From positions 1 to 12,700 of the forward strand of contig JADLDX010000107.1 of assembly GCA_020846515.1 (NCBI GenBank): DNA of 12,700 nucleotides, in the 5' to 3' direction. Source of the stretch: Pirellulaceae bacterium. Lineage in GTDB: Bacteria > Planctomycetota > Planctomycetia > Pirellulales > Pirellulaceae. The notes beneath the pieces are model-generated. The model worked only from the letters and a program-made list of their open reading frames with translations, had not been told where the DNA came from and did no database searches. Made by a program: the position numbers and the translations under genes. Shown here piece after piece: positions 11,396 to 12,363 of the stretch. The number at the start of each line of letters is the position of its first letter. Position 1 is the stretch's first letter.

Positions 11396-11418
11396 AAAAG
11401 GGGTCAGGTCTATTTTTT
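11388..11418 (+). terminator. Intrinsic terminator overlapping the TPR gene stop codon
   Basis: AGACCT (11388-11393) pairs with AGGTCT (11406-11411), followed after one A by six T (11413-11418). The left arm includes the last sense codon and the first base of the TAA stop. The six A in the loop can also pair with the six T. The loop is large (12 nt), so strength is uncertain. Confidence 0.5.
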
Positions 11419-11422
11419 CTTC

Positions 11423-11453
11423 GTAGCCCCGGCACTCCGTGACGGTGTACTCC
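11423..11453 (+). repeat. Class-2 REP-like unit (degenerate)
   Basis: A GTAG head, arms around CAC-TCC-GTG with one G/A mismatch and outer CCG/CGG pairs, and a CTCCC tail. It lies just after the terminator of the TPR gene and shares head, loop and tail with the other class-2 units. Confidence 0.5.
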
Positions 11454-11483
11454 CATTCTTGTTTTAGCGCAGTGTGAATAAAG

Positions 11484-11555
11484 GTGATGACGATTCGCGG
11501 AGCGATTCGTCTACAGCGAGAAATGGGATGACGAGTCGCGGAGCGATTCGTCTAC
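11484..11555 (-). repeat. Two class-2 REP-like units, direct repeat with 41-bp period
   Basis: Read on the minus strand, units at 11555-11525 and 11514-11484 each run GTAG, ACGAATCGC, loop TCC, GCGA-TCGTC arm, then ATC-rich tail. Each stem has a single non-Watson-Crick position (C in one, A in the other). The GTAG head and TCC loop match the 6370 and 11423 units. Confidence 0.75.
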
Positions 11556-11565
11556 AAAACCGCTA

Positions 11566-11776
11566 AGACCAAGGCACGTCCGTGTGCCTTGGATTGGTCT
11601 CAGCAGACCGCTGGCCGACGTATGAAGAAGTCGGCTAGTGGACTCCCCGTCCGCCATCCATGCGGGCAAGGTGGGTGAAATCCTCGCACACACGCTTTCA
11701 GGGAACCAACTCTGAAATCGCGCGTGCGTTTGTGGCTCATCAGCCCGTGGCCGGAGGCTGAATGTGGATCTCACCC
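11566..11776. ncRNA. Candidate structured RNA, five helices with a three-way junction
   Basis: Helices read on the plus strand: S1 11566-11600 (AGACC-AAGGCAC with GTGCCTT, 5-nt bulge, GGTCT); S2 11608-11641 (12 bp, CCGCTGGCCGAC with GTCGGCTAGTGG, two G-U pairs, 10-nt loop); a 6-bp helix 11649-11667; then a closing helix 11673-11683 with 11766-11776 (10 of 11 paired) enclosing S3 11685-11728 (outer 10-bp and inner 6-bp segments) and S4 11738-11764 (8 bp, one bulge). Junction strands are 1, 9 and 1 nt. Strand is unresolved: S2 and the 6-bp helix keep wobbles only on plus, S3 and the closing helix only on minus. On minus, S1 followed by TTAGCGGTTTT would be terminator-like, 3' of mraZ. No Rfam family was recognised. 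Confidence 0.5.
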
Positions 11777-12328: not shown

Positions 12329-12354
12329 ACCCACAGCGTACCACTCGGTCCCAC
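12329..12354 (-). promoter_or_regulatory. MraZ operator: three GTGG boxes at 10-bp spacing
   Basis: On the minus strand the boxes GTGGGA (12354-12349), GTGGTA (12344-12339) and GTGGGT (12334-12329) are exactly 10 bp apart, separated by 4-nt spacers. In E. coli, MraZ binds TGGGN repeats separated by 5 nt, also a 10-bp period. The array lies 5 nt upstream of the mraZ ATG and just downstream of the predicted transcription start, which suggests autorepression. Confidence 0.75.
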
Positions 12355-12363
12355 AGAGCCCCA

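Follow-up and report, generated by a model that had tools for sequence, protein, structure and literature searches.

The locus

The window analysed here, a 12,700-nt stretch of a contig from a Pirellulaceae bacterium, carries mraZ on the minus strand (12323-11856) and, just downstream in sense orientation, a compact structured RNA of 211 nt (11776 to 11566). GTGGG-type boxes lie just upstream of the mraZ start, at 12330-12363 on the minus strand (two 14-nt copies 20 nt apart, with a third between them by eye). We take these boxes to resemble MraZ operator repeats, and they are preceded by a promoter-like TTGACT-16-TATCTT at 12391-12364. A search of the window for promoter-like sites gave this one upstream of mraZ (0.3 expected by chance) and none between mraZ and the RNA. 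Because such a site lies only upstream of mraZ, the RNA is likely to be co-transcribed with that gene in the window.

Beside the RNA is a REP-like repeat at 11413-11561, with two 36-nt copies 41 nt apart (11480-11515 and 11521-11556). When a 465-nt query was searched against its own genome, 75 matches were obtained, and the 74 besides the query itself all fell in the 11413-11561 part (best 40 of 314 candidates). The element has no second copy in this genome, where the next-best match has an E-value of 0.21. The RNA and the REP-like repeats are followed by a convergent gene of 597 aa that is TPR-like by reading and is not rsmH (the same gene as mraW); rsmH was not found in this assembly, which is 81% complete.

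Fold and sense strand

The initial annotation had proposed a compact structured RNA at 11566-11776, and the computed folds bear this out, with stabilities of −100.2 kcal/mol on the minus strand (z −5.38) and −96.5 kcal/mol on the plus strand (z −4.03), and no shuffle out of 200 reaching the stability of either strand. Homologues were found, and the conserved RNA spans the same 211 nt. The sense strand is the minus strand, that of mraZ, because two P2 pairs that are U-G in 43 of 43 stand-alone relatives would be A-C on the opposite strand, and because model R1, built from five same-genus cores with the window excluded, matches the minus strand of the window with 46.6 bits and has no plus-strand match at E ≤ 1. 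Weak opposite-strand matches to R1 are present in some relatives.

The RNA folds into a three-way-junction core (P1, P2 and P3) followed by hairpins P4, P5 and P6, all read on the minus strand. The closing helix P1 joins 11766-11776 to 11673-11683 with 11 of 11 positions paired, one of them as G-U, and that position would therefore be a mismatch on the plus strand; P1 also covaries in relatives. The P2 hairpin (11741-11760) is the most conserved part, with the loop CGGCCAC (11747-11753). It is followed by the junction segment GCCACAAA (11729-11736), in which GCCACA is invariant in seven aligned same-genus sequences, and by P3 (11685-11728), which varies in length among relatives. The loops of P4 (11645-11667) and P6 (11569-11592) are CsrA-site-like: P4 presents CAUGGAUG (11655-11662), P6 presents ACGGAC inside ACACGGACGU (11576-11585), and the two carry the shared motif as AUGGA and ACGGA. 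P5 occupies 11614-11635, and a small hairpin, GGUCU-GCUG-AGACC (11596-11609), competes with the outer GACC...GGUC pairing of P6. An outer helix of the wider family, P0, has no evident counterpart in the window.

The closing helix that had been described from the letters is the fully paired P1, and the three hairpins probably correspond to P3, P5 and P6; P2 and P4 were missed. The junction linkers had been given as 1 nt, which is correct for two of them, but the third is longer (1, 9 and 1 nt in the minus-strand fold of the window).

Homologues and extent of the family

A blastn search of 60 genomes, the window's own included, gave a match at E ≤ 0.1 in 13. Six genomes of the same genus (G002, G004, G006, G008, G009 and G010) carry the core beside mraZ, rsmH or both, with the motif CAGC...CGGCCAC...GCUG...GCCACA; in the other matched genomes, G025 foremost, this motif is absent at the matched place. 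With R1, whose E-values are rough, as are those of the models R2 and R3 described below, 65 of the 241 family genomes matched at E ≤ 0.1, many of them through the P2 hairpin alone. The strongest of these matches, in the window's genus and in genus g47, adjoin mraZ or rsmH, the latter located with an RsmH query taken from L048. The weaker ones, in other genera, hold P2 within a longer fold in which P0 is followed by P1, P2, P3 and P4. Both arms of P0 were present in 50 of 50 stand-alone sequences searched (one a duplicate), with up to two mismatches allowed. The carriers in the family include Rhodopirellula baltica (G229) and Rubripirellula, with Roseimaritima and Stieleria also among the matches listed.

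A 20-base pattern for P2, CAGNYTGCGGCCACNNGCTG, matched 66 of the 241 family genomes, exactly once in each, and the reversed-pattern control had matches in 2 genomes. One of the 66, G080, is probably a chance match, with the rest of the fold absent by eye. The window itself fails the pattern because C replaces G in its P2.

Model R2 was made from an alignment (A4) of the stand-alone group only, and matched 44 of 396 genomes of the order at E ≤ 0.01. It recognises g76 and g81, the bridging genera, at E 7e-13 to 1.5e-9 per genome and 8e-15 to 1e-11 in loci, as well as four genomes of f17, which is a different family (E 2e-7 to 1e-3). Model R3, made from an alignment (A5) with no member of the window's genus, identified that genus in 11 of 11 loci, each time at the correct site; E-values were 3e-6 to 1.3e-3 for nine loci, 0.007 for one and 0.025 for the window. 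These matches suggest a link between this version of the RNA and the wide family that is well supported for the genus, but weak for the window alone, because R2 sees only P2 in the window (E 0.16) and the genome-wide searches with R2 and R3, under stricter filters, missed its genome. Phylum-wide, R3 matched 1 of 392 genomes, a result that sets no bound on distribution because only the best 8 candidates per genome were scored and the window's own genome was missed.

Four of the 15 same-genus genomes, G001, G003, G005 and G014, had no RNA match with R1 and no mraZ match either, a pattern that points to joint loss or to assemblies that are incomplete. Of these, G003 and G005 possess rsmH, and with filters off R1 and R3 gave nothing at E ≤ 0.1 in six rsmH loci, those of G003 and G005 included. 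G002 and G009 retain only the core, before rsmH, with P4-P6 absent. This reduced form, 81-82 nt long, is seen in two same-genus loci, L046:1487-1567 and L047:1465-1546. A U-run and then rsmH come immediately after it in L046, which gives the impression that the core has taken over the role of a terminator.

Covariation

Evidence that the fold is conserved came from two alignments. A4 holds 43 of the 49 distinct stand-alone sequences, six g80 sequences with a long P3 having been left out. RNAalifold, run on A4 with no structure supplied, recovered P0, P1, P2 and P4 plus one stray pair. In A4, 13 of 37 pairs are changed on both sides and 98.9% of cells pair, and no shuffle out of 500 equals the alignment on any measure; in a slid-partner control, 26-44% of cells pair. 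The 20 columns around the P2 loop are invariant in 43 of 43 sequences. A5 comprises 33 sequences aligned to R2 and hence leaning towards the R2 structure; both partners have changed in 30 of its 37 pairs and 95.0% of cells are paired, with 0 of 500 shuffles as good. The initial annotation had named helix-breaking homologues beforehand as what would speak against the RNA; that test was run and did not go against the RNA. Among the classes it had suggested, a new planctomycete non-coding RNA is supported by the homologues with compensatory changes. The conserved structured RNA family is almost certainly real.

Genomic position

The RNA lies between mraZ and rsmH in four f17 loci, and likewise in loci of the window's genus and of g47. 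In g4 it follows mraZ, and two loci each of g7 and g15 have it directly ahead of rsmH. The MraZ protein of the window matched 18 of 30 genomes at E ≤ 1e-6, with strong matches (E ≤ 2e-44) in 11 of 23 other-family genomes, representing ten families. The short motif GGCCAC occurs within about 250 nt after mraZ in 10 of those 11 loci, and with filters off R3 hits the region behind mraZ in 8 of the 11 (E ≤ 0.02). The place between mraZ and rsmH is common and probably ancestral. A GUCCGUCCG-like stretch recurs 5′ of the RNA in several mraZ-linked loci (L200-L219).

In several genera the RNA lies apart from both mraZ and rsmH, between other genes, with P0-P4 intact. In g82, for example, the stand-alone RNA is flanked upstream by a divergent gene resembling a rhamnulokinase and downstream by a convergent one of NUDIX type. 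In g86, a convergent rsmH is next to the RNA or one gene away in 12 of 13 loci. The names of these neighbours come from reading the sequences, with no family search. In two genomes (G011 and G012), rsmH sits on one contig and mraZ with the RNA on another, so the separation may be real there. Since the RNA stands alone between other genes in several genera, it probably acts in trans rather than purely in cis.

The P6 loop and CsrA

RsmY and RsmZ have GGA-bearing hairpin loops, and such loops recur at P6. Hairpins were picked by eye at 35 loci, namely 25 that are mraZ/rsmH-linked or bridging and 10 from the set of 11 additional mraZ loci (the contig ends early in the remaining one); G002, G009 and the stand-alone group are outside the count. 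The P6 loop contains GGA in 34 of these 35 hairpins, which are homologous and not independent, and A-N-G-G-A in 32, where N is C in 12, U in 12, G in 4 and A in 4. In the alignment of the 32 ANGGA-type hairpins (30 distinct), where A and GGA are invariant by selection, all seven stem pairs change on both sides somewhere; 1 of 500 shuffles reaches all seven, and 0 of 500 match on the other four measures. As background, 31 of 2100 hairpins with loops of 5-6 nt begin with ANGGA (78 loci, both strands, the RNA included). Counted over 25 RNAs there are 56 ANGGA motifs, so that each RNA has about two; letter shuffles predict a count of 18.3. The RNA therefore has the ANGGA in hairpin loops that is characteristic of CsrA-binding (Csr/Rsm) small RNAs, and does not have their many sites per RNA.

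The stand-alone group differs in its loops. No P6 was seen there by eye, and P4 has GGA in 19 of 43 sequences and lacks it in 24; in g76 and g81, none of five P4 loops has GGA. In the stand-alone group GGA overall is rarer than in shuffles (73 vs 102.6), but ANGGA is commoner (42 vs 16.3). U-runs follow P6 in several loci, and follow the core in G002; P6 of the window has no strong U-run, and no terminator-like site was found there. CsrA (PF02599) was found in 18 of 18 genomes tested, with 4-16 matches each, which seems to us many. Because it is present in all 18, its co-occurrence with the RNA discriminates nothing.

The available text of PMC7652899 gives a SELEX consensus for CsrA of RUACARGGAUGU, mostly in hexaloops closed by AC and GU, and an ANGGAN loop in RsmE structures. 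Compared with that description, ACACGGACGU in P6 of the window has the form of a reported CsrA/RsmE loop. The same text puts about 18 CsrA subunits on each CsrB and notes that long stems may disfavour CsrA binding. On these sequence comparisons, the chance that the RNA binds CsrA falls a little short of even.

Comparison with known RNA classes

At E ≤ 5 Rfam matched the window three times, never on the element, and gave no credible match on the RNA in the window plus 18 relative loci. In that set the models for RNase P, tmRNA, SRP and riboswitches were all silent at E ≤ 5, as were HEARO and the mraW motif RF01746, in agreement with the initial annotation, which had been unable to place the element in any of the first four. 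Only one match overlapped the RNA region, that of a microRNA model in L050, where it falls on the opposite strand and at chance level (E 2.8). The idea of an omega-RNA, HEARO or IS200/605-type element finds no support: no such Rfam match appears at E ≤ 5, the P2 pattern occurs once per genome, and the position in gene order is recurrent.

6S RNA is a bacterial RNA of similar length, encoded as a rule by one gene and marked by a large central bubble. The planctomycete RNA has a different fold, and the 6S model RF00013 matched 0 of 18 genomes; since the same search was positive in only 6 of 14 controls, its silence is weak evidence either way. Absence of 6S from Pirellula staleyi and R. baltica is reported in the available text of PMC5673643, citing Wehner 2014. 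CsrB, RsmY and RsmZ of Gammaproteobacteria share with the RNA the GGA in hairpin loops, in an ANGGAN hexaloop often closed by AC/GU as far as PMC7652899 was available. In contrast to them, the planctomycete RNA belongs to another phylum, has a large conserved multi-junction fold without an Rfam match, carries about two sites instead of many, and often lies by mraZ. The mraW motif RF01746 of Actinomycetales resembles it in being named for mraW (PMC2864571, in part), but is from a different lineage and its Rfam model is silent here at E ≤ 5. The Rhodopirellula-1 candidate RNA of 2010 is listed in a table line of PMC2864571 for Planctomycetes; unlike the present RNA it is also listed for Proteobacteria, and it has no RF number. 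Identity with it is possible on that line, the only basis of comparison. No earlier report of this RNA, and little on RNA regulators of planctomycetes, was found in the open PMC literature. The family is very probably undescribed, a judgement held below certainty by the possible identity with Rhodopirellula-1.

Possible function

The best reading, to which we give slightly under half of our confidence, is an apparently undescribed RNA family of Pirellulales, the order of the window's organism, that acts on CsrA. The RNA would be transcribed with mraZ in the window, probably, and as a separate gene elsewhere. The P1-P2-P3 core would serve as a stability and identity element through its CGGCCAC loop, while P4 and P6 would show ANGGAN loops to CsrA dimers, so that CsrA is sequestered or redirected. 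P6 may also be the transcript end in many lineages, and the RNA would work in trans. In this reading the homology, structure, strand, position, single occurrence of the P2 pattern, loop constancy and presence of CsrA are demonstrated, whereas transcription, termination, action in trans, CsrA binding and sequestration are inferred. Several observations count against action on CsrA. P4-P6 have been lost in G002 and G009, no P6 is visible in the stand-alone group, 24 of 43 P4 loops of that group lack GGA, about two sites per RNA are few for a sponge, and the P6 stems are long.

Much of the positional evidence would also be expected of a cis element, either an rsmH leader or attenuator or an mraZ 3′ UTR with a terminator, in which folding and termination at P6 (at P1 in G002) tune read-through into rsmH. 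Loci of g47, f17 and the window's genus have the RNA between the two genes, and those of g7 and g15 have it immediately ahead of rsmH; GGCCAC (10 of 11) and R3 matches (8 of 11) follow mraZ in loci from ten other families; and U-runs occur after P6 in several loci or, in G002, after the core. However, several genera have the RNA apart from mraZ and rsmH, or tail to tail with rsmH, with P0-P4 intact; it stays with mraZ in G011 and G012 though rsmH is on another contig; and P6 of the window lacks a strong U-run or terminator-like site. The initial annotation's suggestion of a 3′ UTR element of mraZ thus fits the arrangement in the window, but not the genera where the RNA is away from mraZ, and we regard a cis element as fairly unlikely. 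A stand-alone housekeeping RNA, whose protein partner recognises the CGGCCAC hairpin and which might do, for instance, the job of 6S RNA with the ANGGA loops as secondary features, would explain why P2 is the most constant part, why G002 and G009 have kept nothing but the core, and why the pattern occurs once per genome. While the silent 6S search in 18 of 18 genomes and the reported absence from P. staleyi and R. baltica leave room for such a job, two three-way junctions without a large central bubble are unlike 6S, some of the control genomes may themselves lack 6S, and the constancy of the P6 loop is left without explanation; this proposal is unlikely.

GGA is the core of Shine-Dalgarno sites, and to our knowledge an A two bases before GGA is no requirement of such sites. 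The ANGGA loops could share GGA with that core by mimicking Shine-Dalgarno sequences and titrating ribosomes, or could merely stabilise a terminator hairpin, but an A at that position followed by a free N fits the CsrA loop described in the available text of PMC7652899, and either explanation is very improbable. REP-like repeats adjoin the RNA, as they might if it were a remnant of a mobile element (HEARO, IS200/605 or REP) or a chance structure. The repeat matches end outside the element, however, there is one match per genome at a recurrent position with no credible Rfam match, and the compensatory changes strongly disfavour this reading, which is barely credible.

An RNA with covariation support, shared by many families of a single order and present in R. 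baltica, marks a clear annotation gap. If the RNA binds CsrA, the several CsrA proteins of these bacteria gain a candidate regulator, and RNA control of CsrA would extend beyond Gammaproteobacteria, where such control is described in the available text of PMC7652899. A further and rather doubtful proposal is an RNA that antagonises CsrA throughout this order, outside Gammaproteobacteria, and that, lying between mraZ and rsmH, would wire CsrA control into a remnant division-gene cluster, with the CGGCCAC-hairpin core as a new protein-binding fold. These bacteria are reported to divide without FtsZ in the available text of PMC12283558. A second, diverged MraZ-like protein (26-30% identity) is present in nine other-family genomes with a strong mraZ match (L228-L236).
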